Below are positions 7,008 to 17,210 of a stretch of DNA of 17,210 bases, piece by piece; position 1 is the stretch's first letter, and each line of letters opens with the position of its first letter. A model generated the notes under the pieces. It did no database searches and was not told the DNA's origin. It was given only the letters and a program-made list of their open reading frames with translations. Source of the stretch: Acidobacteriota bacterium (GTDB lineage Bacteria; Acidobacteriota; Terriglobia; Acidiferrales; UBA7541); contig QHYO01000437.1 in assembly GCA_003224135.1 (NCBI GenBank), forward strand, positions 1-17,210. Direction: 5' to 3'. The translations under genes and the position numbers were made by a program.

Positions 7008-7044
7008 TTGACACTCTAACTATCCCCGATATATGTATATGTCG
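7008..7044 (+). promoter_or_regulatory. Promoter and palindromic operator of the third PadR (copy 1)
   Basis: TTGACA (7008-7013) is followed after 16 nt by TATATG (7030-7035). The -10 lies inside CGATATATGTATATGTCG (7027-7044), an 18-bp near-perfect palindrome. AGGAGG at 7052-7057 precedes the ATG at 7062. The layout fits PadR autorepression; the assignment is inference from position. Confidence 0.6.
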
Positions 7045-7061
7045 AATGTCTAGGAGGCGCG

Positions 7062-7202
7062 ATGCCGATTGAGAAATCCGACTTGCTGCAGGGCACGCTT
7101 GACATCGACCGAGCGTCCGCACGGCATAGCGCCGATTGCGGGCAAGTTGTTCGAGCCACATCCAGCCCCACGTTTCTCGCGTGGGCGTGGAACTCTGGGT
7201 AG
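7062..7202 (+). pseudogene. PadR N-terminal remnant (PadR3', copy 1)
   Basis: The start has a strong AGGAGG site 4 nt upstream. The first 15 residues, MPIEKSDLLQGTLDI, are a typical PadR N-terminus. The frame then runs into antisense ADOP sequence and on into the insertion sequence, stopping at 7200-7202 after 46 residues. No recognition helix or wing is present, so no DNA-binding function is expected. Confidence 0.85.
7105..7182 (-). pseudogene. ADOP permease N-terminal fragment (copy 1)
   Basis: On the minus strand the frame reads TRETWGWMWLEQLARNRRY and AVRTLGR, which is the end of the ADOP prefix domain just before the first membrane helix. Both sides are lost: the upstream part is replaced by the insertion sequence and the downstream part by the PadR fragment. 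Confidence 0.8.
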
Positions 7203-8283
7203 CGCATACGGTCTCGGTTGGTCTGGAAATAGTGAAGGCCGCGACGTGCTTCCTGCGAGCGAGGGATCTGGCGGCGGATGGCGTTGAGCAAAGCTTGGAA
7301 TTTTCCGGTGTCGAGTTCTTCCTGCCTACGTTCTGCCCACTCCGTTGCGCGTGGATGAGTGAGGCCGTAGAGAGCTTTTCCGAGATCACTCAAGTGTTGT
7401 TTGGCATGATAGCGGTCAACAATCTGGGTGGCATCGGGAAACTGATCCTCGGCGAGATTCCAAATCCAAAGGGCCCCATCTCCGAGCACGACTCTGCATG
7501 GCGCGTGGCAGAAGCGGCGGCGCGTAGCTTCGCGCCAGACGCGTTCGGCAAAAGGAGCGCGTGCGGCAGCGGTATCCAGCGCGGAAGCGCTCTCTAGAGC
7601 CGCCGAGTAGGTGACCGATCCTGCATCGCGGATGGGCGTGCCTTCTTCATCGCGCGCTTCCGCACTCCAAATGGTGCAGAGTTTCACTTCGCCGGTTTTG
7701 GCCGATCCGTCCGGCTGCTTGCCGATCCGGCCAGCGAGTTCCTCGGCGCGTAAAGGAATCCCTGTTCCGTCCATGCCGAGATACAAGGTCTGTGGCAGAG
7801 GAAGCATATCGGATGGTTCGCTGTGCTGGCGTTCGTCTTCGGCGATCTCTTTTCCGAGCGCTTCTGCGGTTCTCTCCACCTGCTTGGCATCCAGCGCCAC
7901 ACCGGCCAGTTCGGTCAACAGTTCGCTGCCTTCCTGGAAGCTGACCATCGCACCGACCGTGCCCACCATGCGCGTGAGGGCGGGAGACAAGGAAGTGTTT
8001 TCTATCTCCAGATGCGCGTCGCGAGGATAGTAACCCTGGCCACAAGCGGAGCAATGATAGTAGGCGCGTTCGAGTCGCAAGGGGCCCAGCACACTGACGA
8101 CGTTCTTGGTCCGGCACGCGACATAACGCGCTCGGTTCCCACAAGGACAACGAAGTGCACTCGCTTCATCGGAAAGATCGGCGTTGAGACGCTGCTCAAT
8201 GGCGTGAGCCGCGAGCCGCAGAGTACGCTGGCGCAAAGCGACTTCCAAGGCCTCGAAATCCAACTCCGCGAGGGCTTGCCGAC

Positions 8284-8697
8284 CTAAGAGGGCTTCGACT
8301 TCTTGGGCGACTTCGGCTTCCAGCGCTGTTTGGAGCCCCTTTTTTGGGCGGCCTCGGAAGCGGCCGCCGGACCTTGGAGTTGGGCATTGGCCCATTGCTC
8401 GCAAGCCTCCCAGAAGGCCTCCACTTGACGTCGGAACTGTTGGCCGGCCTCGACCTGACGGCGCACCAATTCGGCCTGGGCGGCAGCGACAAAGCGAGAT
8501 TCGGTTCGCCCCCCGACTCCCCGCGTGAGACTGAAATACGGGCCGTGGCGTGCGTTGGCGTCGCTGGCACAAGCACAGCCGGGTTTACTGCACTTGACGT
8601 AGCGTTCCGAGAACGAGCCTCGGCGCATCGGTCTAGCCTGCGCCAGCTGCGCAGCGAGATCACGAATACGTGCCGGAACTTCGCGAGAATCAGCCAT
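8284..8697 (-). CDS. ORF A of the ISKra4-like element (DUF6788-type N-terminal transposase part)
   Basis: The 137-residue ORF starts at ATG 8697 behind AAGGAGG. It has the conserved pattern MRRGSFSERYVKCSKPGCAC....HGPYFSLTR, a Cys-bearing motif that precedes many ISKra4-type transposases, followed by a basic tail (KRGSKQRWKPKSPKK). Near its end the minus strand carries CCC-AAAAAA-GGGG (A-run at 8345-8340). A -1 shift there moves into the transposase frame (GRPKKGLQTALEAEV). This suggests a programmed frameshift or transcriptional slippage making an ORF A-B fusion, as in many insertion sequences. Whether ORF A has its own role is unknown. Confidence 0.75.
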   Translation of the reverse strand: MADSREVPARIRDLAAQLAQARPMRRGSFSERYVKCSKPGCACASDANARHGPYFSLTRGVGGRTESRFVAAAQAELVRRQVEAGQQFRRQVEAFWEACEQWANAQLQGPAAASEAAQKRGSKQRWKPKSPKKSKPS

Positions 8698-11649: not shown

Positions 11650-13512
11650 TCATTCATGAACACGCAGCGAGGCGTCTCCTGTAAGCACGGGAATTTGCTT
11701 CTGTTGAGAATCCGATGCACGTACACGGGCGAACGACAGCTTTGAAGAACCTGTGCCGATTGCGCGCACGACCACAGAGGCCAGAGTTCCCGTGCCGTTC
11801 ACTCCCAAAGTGTTTGGCTGACGTGTTAAGGAGATAATCGCTTGGCCGCGCTCCCTGTCGATATTTTGCACGAGGGCAATCTCCTGAGTCCCACCGGAGA
11901 GCAGATCACCATGATGCACTTCCTCGATGCTCAATATTCGCGGGTCGTATTGGAGCAGGAAAGGAACAGAGAACAGATCCTTCACATTCTCAGCGATTAC
12001 GTCAATCGACGTCTTCTGTCCAATCTCTAAGCTTATGTTTTCAGGTTCCAAGCGAATGCGGGCGGGTTCGAGGCGAACTGTAGCGGGAGGAAGCGTCGGA
12101 GCAAGGGCAGAGTCCTCGCGCCGCACTTGGATGTTCGTTTCAGTACCGGCGCTGACAGGCCGGATGTCCGCTTGCATCAACGCCGGGAGACGGACGATCC
12201 GGGGCACCAGCACGATCAATACTTCGTTCTCCTCATGATCGGTCTTTTCGCTTGAGAAAAGATAACGAAGGACCGGAATATGCGCGAGTCCTGGCCACCC
12301 GTTGAGCGCTTTGGAGTCAACATGCTCGAATAAGCCGCCGAGGATGCTGACTTCGCCCTCCTTCAGACGAATGTCGTGTTCGATTTTGCGCTGGCTAATA
12401 ATGGGCTGCTGGATGCCGCCAATCGTGCTCGTCCCTGTCACAGAAGAGACTTCGATCGACAACTTCAAACTGACCTCGTGGTTTGGATGGATGCGGGGCG
12501 TAATGTCAATGTTGACACCGACATCGATATACGTGAATTGCGTGTTTACAAGAGGATTTACCGAGGCTGAGGTCGACGAAAAACTTCCCGTTGCCACGGG
12601 TACACGGTCGCCGACCCGGAGCTTGGCCGGTTGTCCATCGACAGAACGGAGTTCTGGATTCTGGATGATGTGCGACGTGCTGTCCGTGAAAATTGCATTG
12701 GCAGTGGCTCCTGGCAGCGTGATGCTGTAGTTTGTGGCTATGTGGCCCAACTCGCTCAAAGGTGCCTTCGTCTTAGTCGAAGAAGAGTCGCTTGGCGGCG
12801 TGTAGGAGAGCGTGGCCGTGCTTCCCGGATCGATACCCAGTTGATGCACTTTGTCGCGTCTGGCCTGGAGCACCTCTACCTGGATAACTACCTCGGGCTT
12901 TGCGTTGTCCACATCGTGGATGATTTTAGCCGCGAGGGCCAGTTTGTCAGGCGTATCGCGGATGACGATAGCGTTTTGCGAATTCAGTTGCTGGACGCGC
13001 TTGAGGTCGAGTAGCTGCCTCAATCCATTCACAATCTCCGTCAGATCTTGTGACAGGACCGTATTCGATAAATAATACGTTTGTACAATCTGTTCCTCGT
13101 AGTCGCGGCGCTTTTGAGGTTGGTCCGGGATCACCATCACGATGTTCTGCGTTACGGGCTTCCAAAAAGCCTTTGCTTCAAAAGAAACAACGTCAAGCGC
13201 CTGCTCGAGTGTGACTTCGGCTAATTCTACTGAGATCCGTCGCGCCGGGAAGTCCGGATCGAATATTACTGTCAGGCCAGCGAGCTTGCCTATCGTTTCG
13301 TAAACAATCTTCGAATCGTTCACCATCTTGATGTTGATCGGTGAGTTGGATAGGGGCTTCAACTCCGGCGGACCCTCAGCTAGGGCGTGAAGGGCCTGCG
13401 GCCTGATAGCCTGATCGAGGACGCCTTCAGGCCCGGTTGGCCCCACCAACGAAAAATTCGGTCCGAACACCAGCAACAAACCTAGAATGGAGCGAAAAGA
13501 AGCGCTCAGCAT
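11650..13512 (-). CDS. Secretin with C-terminal cohesin domain
   Basis: The 620-residue protein starts at ATG 13512 with GGAG 8 nt upstream. A signal peptide covers about residues 1-25. Next come an N0/STN domain (about 55-120, VYETIGKLAGLTVIFDPDF..), an N1-type domain (about 130-205), and the secretin beta domain (about 265-450) with VGVNIDITPRIHPNHEVSL, then LKEGEVSILGGLFE and the gate-like WPGLAHIPVLRYLFSSEK ending in VLIVLVPRIVR. After a short linker with repeated RLEP, residues about 500-615 form a cohesin-like domain (VPFLLQYDPRILSIEEV..). Secretins form outer-membrane channels for type II secretion or type IV pili. No other secretion gene is visible here, so the partner machine is unknown. 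It follows the CpxP-like gene by 157 bp and may share its transcript. Confidence 0.85.
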   Translation of the reverse strand: MLSASFRSILGLLLVFGPNFSLVGPTGPEGVLDQAIRPQALHALAEGPPELKPLSNSPINIKMVNDSKIVYETIGKLAGLTVIFDPDFPARRISVELAEVTLEQALDVVSFEAKAFWKPVTQNIVMVIPDQPQKRRDYEEQIVQTYYLSNTVLSQDLTEIVNGLRQLLDLKRVQQLNSQNAIVIRDTPDKLALAAKIIHDVDNAKPEVVIQVEVLQARRDKVHQLGIDPGSTATLSYTPPSDSSSTKTKAPLSELGHIATNYSITLPGATANAIFTDSTSHIIQNPELRSVDGQPAKLRVGDRVPVATGSFSSTSASVNPLVNTQFTYIDVGVNIDITPRIHPNHEVSLKLSIEVSSVTGTSTIGGIQQPIISQRKIEHDIRLKEGEVSILGGLFEHVDSKALNGWPGLAHIPVLRYLFSSEKTDHEENEVLIVLVPRIVRLPALMQADIRPVSAGTETNIQVRREDSALAPTLPPATVRLEPARIRLEPENISLEIGQKTSIDVIAENVKDLFSVPFLLQYDPRILSIEEVHHGDLLSGGTQEIALVQNIDRERGQAIISLTRQPNTLGVNGTGTLASVVVRAIGTGSSKLSFARVRASDSQQKQIPVLTGDASLRVHE

Positions 13513-13669: not shown

Positions 13670-14179
13670 TCATTCATGCCTGTCCGAAGTGGACACAAAC
13701 ACCGGGCCAGGTGGAAGCAAGGGAGCGGAAACGCCGAAAAATGGATGCGGCAACTGTTCCAACCTTTGCTTTTGATCCGCGCTTAAGTGGCTGTAAATCT
13801 TGGACTGGGCCTTGGCGTCAATAGCCAGAATCTCGCCGGAGATGCCGGCCACATCTCTGGCGAGCTGATCGATTTCTGCATCGGGCGCGGCCGCTTTCTG
13901 GGCCGAAAGAAGCGCGTCAGAAGACTGTTTCAGCTGCTCGAGCAGGGGCTTCGACAGTGTGTCCTCATCGTTGAAGATCGTTTTGGCATTCGCTTGTTGG
14001 CTTGCGTTCAGCGAGAGCATGGCGGTTAGCATAGCGACGCGATCCGCACCTCCCGCAACACCAAAGGCGGCTAACGATGGACCGCTTTGCGTCGAATACT
14101 GTTGAGCTGATGGAACGGCATGGACCGCAGCAATGGAAAGAACCGCAACCGACACATACTTACCGAGGGTTTCCTTCAT
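13670..14179 (-). CDS. CpxP/Spy-like periplasmic protein
   Basis: The start chosen is ATG 14179, with AAGGAG 7 nt upstream; the frame is open much further, but into the neighbouring regulator gene. The 169-residue product begins with a signal peptide (MKETLGKYVSVAVLSIAAV.., cleavage likely after PSA). The mature part is helical and contains two LTxxQ-like motifs, LNASQ and LSADQKQRL, spaced as in CpxP/Spy family proteins, with an acidic-glutamine-rich helix between. Family members are periplasmic chaperones or stress sensors that restrain a CpxA-type kinase. A 39-bp composite operator lies 83 bp before the start. Sequence similarity to known members is weak, so the family call rests on motif, size and context. 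Confidence 0.7.
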   Translation of the reverse strand: MKETLGKYVSVAVLSIAAVHAVPSAQQYSTQSGPSLAAFGVAGGADRVAMLTAMLSLNASQQANAKTIFNDEDTLSKPLLEQLKQSSDALLSAQKAAAPDAEIDQLARDVAGISGEILAIDAKAQSKIYSHLSADQKQRLEQLPHPFFGVSAPLLPPGPVFVSTSDRHE

Positions 14180-14261
14180 AGACTGACTCCTTTGTTCCGG
14201 ATTTGAACCCGCCTTCAGCCAACTAGGACGCTGTTGTCGCGCGGAGCGTTTTGTCGATCCT

Positions 14262-14300
14262 GTAAGACTTCCGTAAGAAGAAGGCTTACAAGCGGCTAAC
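14262..14300. promoter_or_regulatory. Composite four-half-site operator A (upstream of the CpxP-like gene)
   Basis: The plus strand reads GTAAG (14262-14266), N6, GTAAG (14273-14277), N7, CTTAC (14285-14289), N6, CTAAC (14296-14300). This is two 11-bp-period direct-repeat boxes facing each other. The same layout with identical spacings occurs at 15266-15304. GTAA-type direct repeats are the signature of CpxR-like regulators. No clear -10/-35 pair is visible next to it. Confidence 0.7.
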
Positions 14301-14372
14301 AACTGAACCGGAAAAACACGACCGCACAAACCAAGGCCGAGCGAGATGCGCCCATTTAATGAGTTGAGTCTT

Positions 14373-15173
14373 CTAGAAGCATGTTTTTGGTTCGACCGGA
14401 AAATAGTTTGTTGAAGGCAGCGGCGTCTCAGTGATCGCTGAGGCGAATGGGGTAGAGCGAACGTACACATAACCGACCCTTCGCACCCCGCGGATGCGCT
14501 CCGTACCGTCTGGCAAAGGTCCGAGTTTGCGTCGCAAGTTGCAAACGTGAACATCAATGCTGCGGTCAAACGGACAGTATTCGCGGTCCGAAACCTTTTT
14601 GAGCAGGTCTCTTCGATGAAGGATGCGTCCGCTGCAACCCAAGAAAACTGTTAGCAAATCAAACTCGACTGTCGTGAGGTCGATGAGTTCGGCCTTGCGG
14701 CGACACGTACGCGACCCTCCGTCCAGACAAAGATCATCTACTTCCATGTGTTCCGGCGTGAGGCCGGATTCGCGTGTCAGCCAAGGTGTCCGCCGCCGGG
14801 ATATCGCCCGCATTCGAGCGACGAGTTCACTCGGATTGAATGGCTTAACCAAGCAGTCATCCGCCCCGAATTCCAGTCCGATGATGTTGTCTACTTTCTC
14901 GCTTCGGTCGCTAAGGATCAAAATACCGACTGTCGAATGAGCGCGAAGCCGCTTGGTCACCTCGAGCCCGGTCAACTGTGGCAGTTTTAAGTCCAGGATC
15001 ACAAAATCGTGCTCGCCAGAAAGGCCATGCATCAGCCCTGACTTGCCGTCATGAGCAAGATGAACCGTCATTCCTTCCCGCGCCAAATGCTCTTCGAGCA
15101 ACTCGCACGTGTCTCGGTCTTCGTCGATTACAAGCACGCGAGGCTTCAGGCTGAGTTCCCTTCTCGTAGCCAT
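14373..15173 (-). CDS. OmpR/CpxR-type response regulator (RR1)
   Basis: ATG 15173 was chosen because AGGGA lies just upstream and the receiver starts 11 residues later; a GTG at 15191 would add six residues but has no ribosome binding site. The receiver (PRVLVIDEDRD..) has the acidic pair, phospho-acceptor Asp61 (VILDLKLP), Ser in place of the usual switch Thr (LILSDRS) and Lys110 (LVKPF). A winged-helix output domain follows with LTTVEFDLLTVFLG, RDLLKKV, SIDVHVCNLRRKLG and RGVRRVGYVYV. The C-terminus runs about 25 residues beyond the usual end. It has no kinase directly beside it, but lies 241 bp after RR2 and just after operator B, so it is probably autoregulated and activates the CpxP-like gene through operator A. 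Confidence 0.85.
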   Translation of the reverse strand: MATRRELSLKPRVLVIDEDRDTCELLEEHLAREGMTVHLAHDGKSGLMHGLSGEHDFVILDLKLPQLTGLEVTKRLRAHSTVGILILSDRSEKVDNIIGLEFGADDCLVKPFNPSELVARMRAISRRRTPWLTRESGLTPEHMEVDDLCLDGGSRTCRRKAELIDLTTVEFDLLTVFLGCSGRILHRRDLLKKVSDREYCPFDRSIDVHVCNLRRKLGPLPDGTERIRGVRRVGYVYVRSTPFASAITETPLPSTNYFPVEPKTCF

Positions 15174-15207
15174 CTTCCCTGGTCCCGGCACTTACTTGTG
15201 CTCTGAG

Positions 15208-15220
15208 GAGAGCAGCTCTC
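15208..15220. promoter_or_regulatory. Palindrome in the RR1 leader
   Basis: GAGAGCAGCTCTC is a 6+1+6 perfect inverted repeat 35 nt before ATG 15173 and 45 nt after operator B. It may be a leader hairpin. There is no other evidence for function. Confidence 0.3.
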
Positions 15221-15265
15221 AATGAGCCAAGACGCGCACATGGTTTGAATCGTTGTCTCTGTTTT

Positions 15266-15304
15266 GCAAGGTTGAGGTAAGAAGTGAACTTACAAGTGGC
15301 TTAC
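15266..15304. promoter_or_regulatory. Composite four-half-site operator B (upstream of RR1)
   Basis: The plus strand reads GCAAG (15266-15270), N6, GTAAG (15277-15281), N7, CTTAC (15289-15293), N6, CTTAC (15300-15304). Spacings are identical to operator A, and the right half is nearly the same sequence (CTTACAAGTGGCTTACAAC against CTTACAAGCGGCTAACAAC). It ends 93 bp before the chosen RR1 start. The remaining gap 15305-15432 holds nothing I can name. Confidence 0.7.
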
Positions 15305-15432: not shown

Positions 15433-16128
15433 TTAAGGAAACGGGATGAATTTGTAGCCCGACCGATGGGCGGTGAGAATGTGACGGGGGGATTTCGGAT
15501 TAAGTTCCAGTTTCTGCCTCAACTGGGCGACGTGGACGTCCACAGTTCGCGTATTCGGAAGCCCTTGTTGGTAACCCCATACCTGTTTGAGAAGCGCGTC
15601 GCGAGAAATGAGCTCATCCGGGTGCGAAACAAAGTACCTTAACAGCTCGAATTCTCTCGCAGTCAGTTCGACAGGTGATCCTTCGCGAAGAACCTCTTGT
15701 TTGCGAAGGTTCACTACCACGTTTCCAAAACAAAAAAGAGAATCGATCAATTGCGGCGGCGAATTGTTCGCGCGACGAAGCAACGCCTCCATTCGCGCCA
15801 ACAATTCCGCAACCTCGAAGGGCTTAATGAGGTAATCGTCGGCGCCCGTCTTTAGTCCTTTCACTCGGTCATTGACATGGCCGCGCGCCGTAAGCATCAA
15901 CACCGGCACATTCATGCAGTGGCGCCGCAATTCACGGCACACCTCAAATCCGTTTCGGCCCGGGAGCTGAATATCCAGAAGGAGAAGGTCATACGCTTCT
16001 CGAAGGGCCTCCGCTAGACCCTGTTCGCCGTCCTTACAGGCAGCGACGGAGTAACCCTCTTTCTCCAAACGCTCGCGCAGAAGAAGGGACAAGGTGGCTT
16101 CGTCTTCGATGAGCAGGATCCGATTCAT
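15433..16128 (-). CDS. OmpR/PhoB-type response regulator (RR2)
   Basis: The 231-residue protein has a canonical receiver: acidic pair in RILLIEDE, phospho-acceptor Asp52 (LLLLDIQLPG), Thr80 (LMLTAR) and Lys102 (LIKPF). The output domain has LTAREFELLRYFVSHP, RDALLKQVWGY, RTVDVHVAQLRQKLE and a final HRSGYKFIP. All key residues are present, so it should be functional. Its ATG overlaps the stop of the kinase gene by 4 nt (ATGA), which marks the pair as cognate and translationally coupled. Confidence 0.92.
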   Translation of the reverse strand: MNRILLIEDEATLSLLLRERLEKEGYSVAACKDGEQGLAEALREAYDLLLLDIQLPGRNGFEVCRELRRHCMNVPVLMLTARGHVNDRVKGLKTGADDYLIKPFEVAELLARMEALLRRANNSPPQLIDSLFCFGNVVVNLRKQEVLREGSPVELTAREFELLRYFVSHPDELISRDALLKQVWGYQQGLPNTRTVDVHVAQLRQKLELNPKSPRHILTAHRSGYKFIPFP

Positions 16129-17210
16129 ACGCTGGGTGTCTTCTGGACATCGTGTTGCCCGCGATGCGCAGGCAAGAACAGAGAGAACGAGGTGCCCGTG
16201 AGTTCCGAACTTTCCACCTCGACGATTCCCCGCTGGCTTTCCACTGCACGTTTCACCAGTGTAAGACCAAGACCGACACCGGGTATTTGCGAAGTCTCAC
16301 TTCGTCTTCCTCTATAGAACGCCTCGAAAATATGGGGAAGGTCGAGCAAAGAAATCCCCGGACCTCGGTCCTCGACCGAGATCTGTACCCACTCCCCCTT
16401 GGCCTTTCTTAGCCTTGTCACTCGGATGGCCAGCCATCGTCCCGCTGCAGCATACTTGATGGCATTTTGGATCAGGTTTTCGATGCACCTATTCATCAAA
16501 CGACTATCCACATCCACGAGGGGAAGAGCCGGCGCAATCTCGAGCTCCAGCTCCATACCGGCATCCTGCAAAGCTCGCTTGCAGTTTGCCAGGGAAGTTC
16601 TCACCACTTGCTCAGGAGAAATCGCGGTAGTGCGCGGAGCGAGTCCTGTCGATTCAATTCGCGCAAACGCTAACGTCTCCTCAATCATTTGGGAGAGTTC
16701 CGACGCGTGAGTGCTCACGATTTCGCCGTACCTGCGAGCCTCTGCCGAACTCTCGACCATTCCTTTCTTGAGGTTGTCAGACGCCAAACAAATAACCGCG
16801 AGAGGGGTGCGCAATTCGTGGGATACGCCGAGAACAAACTCGGTTTGCATTTGTGCTAAAGCACGCGCCCGCTCCGTGAAAGCGATCAGCGCGAGAATTC
16901 CCAGCGCGAGCACGAGAAGAACGCCTCCGCCCAAGAGAAGATTCCTCTGACGAAAGATGGCCATCGCCTGGTCGAGCGACCCCGCCCTGTATTTCACCAA
17001 CATCTTCCACAAACCGGCCGGGTCCGCGACCGGCGGAGAGCTCGTGGCGCAAGCCTGCGGCCTTTGAGTCAAGAACTCGGACAAACCGTTTGGGCTCGTT
17101 AGAATGTTGACGCCCGAAGTTCTTGCTATCACCCTGGGCTCGTTCATGGATGAGGAGGGCGAGAAACAGTCCATACGAAGCTGAAGAAGGTTGATACTTC
17201 CGTCAGGACG
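16125..17210 (-). CDS. Sensor histidine kinase (partial, N-terminus outside the window)
   Basis: The frame stays open from the stop at 16125 to the right edge; an ATG at 17174 exists but lacks a ribosome binding site, and the residues before it continue smoothly, so the true start is beyond the window. Visible parts: the end of an extracytoplasmic region (..YRAGSLDQAMAIFRQRN), one membrane helix (LLLGGGVLLVLALGILALIAF), a HisKA domain with FVLGVSHELRTPL (phospho-accepting His at 16820-16818), and an ATPase domain with the N-box (NRCIENLIQNAIKYA), G1 (VEDRGPGI), F-box (FEAFYRG) and G2 (GVGLGLTLV). All catalytic motifs are present. It is the likely kinase for RR2 and possibly also for RR1. Its extracytoplasmic side may be where the CpxP-like protein acts; that is inference. 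Confidence 0.92.
   Translation of the reverse strand, partial: RPDGSINLLQLRMDCFSPSSSMNEPRVIARTSGVNILTSPNGLSEFLTQRPQACATSSPPVADPAGLWKMLVKYRAGSLDQAMAIFRQRNLLLGGGVLLVLALGILALIAFTERARALAQMQTEFVLGVSHELRTPLAVICLASDNLKKGMVESSAEARRYGEIVSTHASELSQMIEETLAFARIESTGLAPRTTAISPEQVVRTSLANCKRALQDAGMELELEIAPALPLVDVDSRLMNRCIENLIQNAIKYAAAGRWLAIRVTRLRKAKGEWVQISVEDRGPGISLLDLPHIFEAFYRGRRSETSQIPGVGLGLTLVKRAVESQRGIVEVESSELTGTSFSLFLPAHRGQHDVQKTPSV

Follow-up and report, generated by a model that had tools for sequence, protein, structure and literature searches.

Two copies of a probable four-box OmpR-type operator beside a two-component system and a CpxP-like gene in an acidobacterial contig

Operators made of opposed boxes are usually regarded as atypical for regulators of the OmpR family. 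The locus described here raises the question of how such an operator may be used, as it carries two copies of one, A and B, in front of two different genes: A precedes a CpxP-like gene and B precedes the gene of a response regulator (RR1), while a second response regulator (RR2) and a histidine kinase (HK) are encoded alongside. Which of the two regulators would bind these sites, and what kind of promoter would they control? The window, that is, the whole stretch of DNA analyzed, is one entire contig of 17,210 bp; the assembly it belongs to is 85% complete and has 804 contigs totalling 4.54 Mb.

The two sites and their genes

The genes of interest lie on the minus strand in the order HK - RR2 - [B] - RR1 - [A] - CpxP-like - secretin. 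The histidine kinase gene (16125..17210) stays in frame up to the contig end, where it is cut, and overlaps by its 3' end the start of RR2 (15433..16128), an OmpR/PhoB-family response regulator that we propose below as the binder of A and B. RR1 (14373..15191, with GTG 15191 or ATG 15173 as start) is a CpxR-like response regulator of the OmpR family, and no kinase gene follows it in the window. Both regulators score above the Pfam cut-off for the receiver (PF00072) and Trans_reg_C (PF00486) domains, and neither is CpxR by NCBIfam, with 161.6 bits (RR1) and 161.7 bits (RR2) against a cut-off of 341 for NF008199. CpxR is the best NCBIfam match of RR1, far under cut-off; the best matches of RR2 are RpaB, MtrA and PhoB, all under cut-off. 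The kinase, as far as its cut N-terminus allows it to be scored, is not of the CpxA type (NF007007, 104 bits against a cut-off of 486), its best matches being PnpS and PhoR. The CpxP-like periplasmic protein (13670..14179; ATG 14179, with AAAGGAG ahead of it) narrowly exceeds the Pfam gathering score for LTXXQ (PF07813), at 25.4 bits against 24.3 over residues 46-144, and has no NCBIfam match at 0.001. The secretin gene that comes next on the same strand (11650-13512) resembles cohesin weakly at its C-terminus, with a score under cut-off. Farther away, an ISKra4-family transposase gene (7016-8572; 199 bits against a cut-off of 205) lies between two ADOP-type permease genes.

Site A (14262-14300, minus strand; GTAAGACTTCCGTAAGAAGAAGGCTTACAAGCGGCTAAC) is located 82 bp ahead of ATG 14179 of the CpxP-like gene. 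Site B (15266-15304, minus strand; GCAAGGTTGAGGTAAGAAGTGAACTTACAAGTGGCTTAC), between RR2 and RR1, is located 92 bp ahead of ATG 15173 of RR1 or 74 bp ahead of GTG 15191. Both sites follow the pattern GTAAG-N6-GTAAG-N7-CTTAC-N6-CTTAC with one mismatch each, a T to A change in the last half-site of A and a T to C change in the first half-site of B, as stated in a preliminary description of this DNA. The two sites are identical at 27 of 39 positions, which divide into 18/20 inside the half-sites and 9/19 outside them, so that the sharing of bases between the boxes, another early observation, is genuine yet modest.

The presence of A and B is not a matter of chance, since at up to two mismatches they are the sole matches to the four-box pattern in 101 genomes (their own and 100 relatives), the reversed-pattern control giving none. 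At up to three mismatches, 36 genomes of the genus yield one extra match (G025), and the control matches in three genomes. Likeness extends beyond the sites on one side: the 60-bp gene-proximal flanks are identical at 28/60 positions (1.5e-4 by shuffling), a level attained by 15 of the 34,300 60-mers of the window, and the 60-bp distal flanks are not alike (14/60). Exact GTAAG-N6-GTAAG occurs elsewhere in the same genome as two pairs, on contigs C316 and C650, with equally many for the reversed control; we rejected both as regulon members, their neighbours (polymerase-X-like, NUDIX, no Pfam) having no evident link to the system.

Recurrence of the inverted core before CpxP-like genes

A four-box pattern with variable centre (GTAAR-N6-GTAAR-N5..35-YTTAC-N6-YTTAC) matched one of 399 genomes of the class, G144. 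The match is not significant by itself, as the reversed control also matched one genome; the telling part is its position, between an RR2-type gene (50% to RR2, 33% to RR1) and a CpxP-like gene (35%, 5.6e-18). Searching the class with the CpxP-like protein of G144 at 1e-9, with at most nine candidates scored per genome, gave 56 places including the window in 50 of the 399 genomes. We counted 54 of the 55 other places, G173 being dropped for having no CpxP there, and distinguished nine loci in which a co-directional RR2-type regulator immediately precedes CpxP, 11 loci where CpxP is divergent from an RR1-type regulator, and 34 remaining loci. The arrangement of the window, where a co-directional RR1-type regulator immediately precedes CpxP, is found in none of the 54.

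This grouping and the core were both fixed once G144 and an initial 30 loci were known, and the P values, taken from per-region shuffles, carry no correction for it. The inverted core GTAAR-N6/7-YTTAC, at no more than one mismatch, was found before CpxP in 9/9 RR2-type loci (G144, G255, G224, G309, G356, G342, G344, G287 and G384), in 3/11 RR1-divergent loci (one exact, that of G314, and one at P<0.05) and in 0/34 of the remaining loci. The RR2-type loci do not represent nine independent events, since all are in family f7 and their regulators fall in two tree groups. Seven of the nine cores are exact, and across all nine stretches (9.5-12 kb) the only exact cores are these seven, one per stretch and each before CpxP. 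The centre is N6 in all nine, against N7 in the window.

The operator of opposed direct-repeat pairs that the preliminary description placed before a regulator gene and a CpxP-like gene has four-box counterparts before other CpxP-like genes of the class. Three of the nine RR2-type loci carry the complete form with an N6 centre, G144 being exact for GTAAR/YTTAC and G255 and G224 having one mismatch each, and all three show the gene order HK-RR2-[operator]-CpxP. The other six have the core alone, at 6 to 8 mismatches from the four-box form. Exact direct pairs are spaced by N6 in the RR2-type loci (3/3), as in the window; they are found in six of the 11 RR1-divergent loci, with N5 in every case, and in 6/34 other loci (five N5, and one N6 in G210). 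In G314, which is RR1-divergent, the exact inverted core lies beside a direct pair.

G144, G255 and G224 are also the only RR2-type loci where a kinase gene is directly upstream of the regulator. In G309, G356, G342, G287 and G384 the regulator stands beside CpxP without an adjoining kinase and an RR-HK pair is convergent; in G344 there is no kinase match in 10 kb. Since the kinase is directly upstream in only three of nine loci, the rule may simply be a regulator beside CpxP, which would mean RR1 at A. Several smaller features were noted in these regions. Loci L229, L230, L231, L233 and L234 of f7 combine a kinase-less regulator and CpxP with a convergent RR2-HK pair; a TTAAC/TTTAC-GTTC-TTAA repeat is seen by eye upstream of the regulator in G287, G384, G342 and G344; and the gene after CpxP in G144 and G255 (L148, L235) belongs to the di-haem cytochrome c peroxidase/MauG family.

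A promoter-like element in phase with the half-sites

Between each site and its gene lies an element that the preliminary description did not mention. On the minus strand, AAAC-N16-GCGTC follows A (14227..14251) and CAAC-N16-GCGTC follows B (15231..15255), and in both cases CGTC begins 31 bp beyond the final half-site; the letters common to the two flanks are [CA]AAC-N16-GCGTC. Promoters of ECF sigma factors are described with AAC in the -35 region and CGT in the -10 region (PMC4153023); going by the letters given there, the elements of A and B resemble them in having AAC and CGT at about 16 bp, and differ in being set at a fixed phase to response-regulator half-sites.

A strict form of the element, CAAC-N15..17-CGTY, fits B and not A, which has AAAC. 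Within 130 bp of the start, this form is present in 6/9 RR2-type CpxP loci (0.10 expected by shuffling), 1/11 RR1-divergent loci (0.05 expected) and 11/34 other loci (0.37 expected). In the 53 CpxP-like loci left when G170 is excluded as too short, it occurs near the gene 17 times in sense and once in antisense orientation, against one sense and no antisense occurrence in the distal 120 bp. The distance from half-site to CGTY, measured on the first promoter match of each locus and with [CA]AAC allowed for the window only, comes to 31 (and 42) for A and B. It is 31-33 for the six RR2-type loci that have the promoter (G144, G255, G309, G342, G344 and G287) and either 32 or 41-42 for G200, G098b, G358, G269, G163, G188, G251 and G218; G170 (25) is off, and no half-site falls in range for G336, G275 and G309b. 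Promoter-like element and phasing thus appear, as judged from sequence, to be common to many CpxP-like genes of the class. At loci L149-L178 and L209-L229, CAAC-N15..17-CGTY keeps a constant helical phase downstream of a YTTAC box even where no regulator gene was found alongside.

Combining core and promoter in one pattern gave three matches in 379 genomes (G287, G342 and G344), all of them RR2-type CpxP loci, with no match for the control; since the pattern itself was derived from loci of this kind, its value lies in the absence of any other match. In the window's own genome, YTTRC-N11-AAC-N16-SCGTY occurs at six places including A and B, against three for the reversed control, and we therefore claim no further regulon member.

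Candidate binders and related operators

The preliminary description favored RR1 as the binder and named RR2 in brackets; it is the bracketed regulator that fits better. RR2 is the likelier binder because the core is present in 9/9 RR2-type loci and, at no more than one mismatch, in 0/24 regions upstream of RR1 relatives, and because RR1 relatives more often bear CpxR-like direct repeats. By the same counts, the conservation upstream of orthologues that had been expected of the motif is found for the CpxP-like gene and not for RR1.

We give a probability of roughly one half (about 0.52) to the reading that A and B are two operator copies belonging to the HK-RR2 two-component system next to them, through which RR1 and the CpxP-like gene are driven. 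Sequence-level support for it consists of the sites, their link to RR2-type loci, the promoter letters and the spacing. RR2, presumably phosphorylated, would bind as two head-to-head dimers on GTAAG-N6-GTAAG and CTTAC-N6-CTTAC; bound just upstream of the ECF-type promoter, it would activate the CpxP-like periplasmic gene at A and the transcription of RR1 at B. The simpler unit would be the HK-RR2-[operator]-CpxP arrangement of G144, G255 and G224, inside which the window lineage would have placed a kinase-less CpxR-like RR1 with its own copy of operator and promoter, resulting in a cascade that runs from HK to RR2 and from there to RR1 and the CpxP-like gene. The binding protein, its phosphorylation, activation, the sigma class and the order of events are the elements of this scheme that we infer. 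Several observations weigh against it: the N7 centre of the window, the small share of RR2-type loci with a kinase directly upstream, the lack among the 54 CpxP loci of any with the window's RR1 arrangement, the scarcity of the exact core near RR2 homologues, the weakly supported place of RR2 in the tree, and the boxes found beside RR1-type genes, the last three taken up below.

The main competing reading, which we consider rather improbable, is that RR1 acts as a CpxR-like orphan at both sites, controlling its own gene through B and driving the CpxP-like gene through A, with phosphate supplied by the kinase next door or by an unlinked one. RR1 is indeed the regulator whose gene adjoins A, and its relatives do have boxes of this kind: a GTAAR direct repeat is present within 250 bp upstream of 15/24 RR1 relatives (window excluded) against 2/15 other regulators (P<0.05 by shuffling), a score that re-examines data already scored once, that counts four loci from one genus among the 15, and that becomes 14/23 against 3/16 if L019, earlier scored as a control, is kept as one. 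The period is 10 in ten of these loci and 11 in the other five, so that RR1 relatives also use the longer period. Opposed pairs, with a wider centre that by eye measures 24-25 bp, are found upstream of the RR1 orthologue in G033 and G007, and G314 joins its direct and inverted pairs beside an RR1-type gene. Against RR1 stand the absence of the inverted core upstream of its relatives, the N5 spacing of the exact direct pairs in RR1-divergent CpxP loci, and the matrix built from the four window pairs, since replaced by the direct-repeat score, which reached P<0.05 in only 7/23 relatives (8/24 with the window) and in 2/16 controls.

Both regulators might also be integrated at a composite operator, RR2 occupying the inverted inner pair and RR1 competing or joining on the GTAAG-N6-GTAAG pairs. 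The side-by-side position of the two genes in the window and the association of GTAAR half-sites with both regulator types speak for such an arrangement, which is nonetheless unlikely: in the RR2 search, the 10-12 kb stretches of the four-box loci G144, G255 and G224 show one regulator gene of this kind each. Least probable is a local duplication that left copies of operator and promoter, B having no present function and RR1 being read through from RR2. The likeness of the gene-proximal flanks (28/60) is what a duplication would leave, but the agreement of half-sites at 18/20 positions, against 9/19 for the bases between boxes, suggests that the boxes are under selection in each copy.

Starting again from RR2 as the preferred binder, we tentatively extend the scheme to the class, where many CpxP-like envelope genes could be under joint control: an OmpR-family regulator would bind GTAAR/YTTAC boxes, as opposed dimers in RR2-type loci, at a fixed helical phase above an ECF-sigma -35 element, and recruit or activate RNA polymerase with an alternative sigma factor. 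The window lineage would then have copied this operator-promoter cassette before a kinase-less regulator, creating a two-regulator envelope-stress cascade.

A and B are a variant within OmpR-family operators, and no new kind, because they join the half-site of the CpxR box to a plan, inverted core plus direct repeats, that is known from AgrR. The CpxR motif is given as GTAAA-N5-6-GTAAA in PMC9600279; compared with it, GTAAG-N6-GTAAG of the window has a spacing that is allowed, differs in the last base, and is supplemented by an inverted copy. As in the gammaproteobacterial control of cpxP, tandem GTAA half-sites near one helical turn apart precede a gene of the CpxP family of periplasmic proteins. 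The window differs from that system by its four head-to-head boxes, GTAAG sequence, N7 centre and ECF-like promoter, by a CpxP-like gene that is co-directional with the regulator genes, and by regulators neither of which is CpxR by the NCBIfam cut-off. The same inverted N6 core can be read in the Pseudomonas aeruginosa CpxR sites GTAAGCCTTGGCTTAC (dnr) and GTAAAGATAACTTTAC (hpd), which are the authors' estimates near DAP-seq peaks (PMC12802237). The operator of AgrR, an OmpR-family regulator like CopR and PcoR, is described as an inverted core with in-phase direct repeats (PMC7380067), a plan that resembles A and B. Its core as given there, ATKACA-N4-TGTMAT, has TTAC/TKAC before GTMA, the opposite half-site order to GTAAR-N6-YTTAC, so that A and B are not of the AgrR/CopR type, and AgrR concerns silver and metal resistance, unlike the window system. 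Among the papers listed by our literature search on Cpx-like control in Acidobacteria, none dealt with such control. The present analysis ties an opposed-box operator to a recognizable module, HK-RR2-CpxP with an ECF-like promoter at fixed phase, and offers a route to predicting the regulons of such systems. It raises the question of whether a response regulator can activate ECF-sigma polymerase, and also illustrates that picking the neighbour with the best annotation, in this case the CpxR-like RR1, may lead to the wrong binder.

Homologues of the two regulators provided further instances of related sites. RR2-like matches were found in 164 genomes, and we took the best 30 loci, one of them the window's own. 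The exact core is absent near the RR2 homologue in 28 of the 29 others examined; the exception, contig C113 of G356 (L204), has an HK-RR pair (57% to RR2) with three boxes after it, GTAAA-N6-GTAAA-N6-TTTAC. The genes downstream of this operator, one for a small glycine-rich secreted protein and one presumably for a DUF2202-like protein, are candidates for other targets of the same kind of operator. On contig C13 of G287 (L208), an RR2 relative is followed by CTTAC-N6-TTTAC and an ORF that may encode an ECF sigma factor. In the regulator tree RR2 is in no well-supported group: the G356 (C113) and G287 (C13) sequences join it at 82/76, with the long RR1 branch in the same group, and the row nearest to RR2 by path, G068, has no such site.

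RR1 relatives are also present in G059, of the same family, and in JASHRN010000105.1 ('Candidatus Acidiferrales bacterium'); a scan with generic peptide patterns gave at least 80 loci, of which L055 alone was useful. The paralogue of RR1 in its own genome is on C579 (54%), and a kinase resembling that of C579 adjoins the regulator in 23 of the 24 distinct RR1-relative loci, the sole exception being L135, where the regulator sits at the contig end. In C579 (L037:6496-10281) and G033 (L039:2969-6831), the CpxR-like RR-HK pair is divergent from bamA (POTRA + Omp85), with opposed boxes between them that read GTTAA/CTTAA in C579 and GTAAR/CTTAM in G033; this pair is possibly a regulator of outer-membrane assembly.
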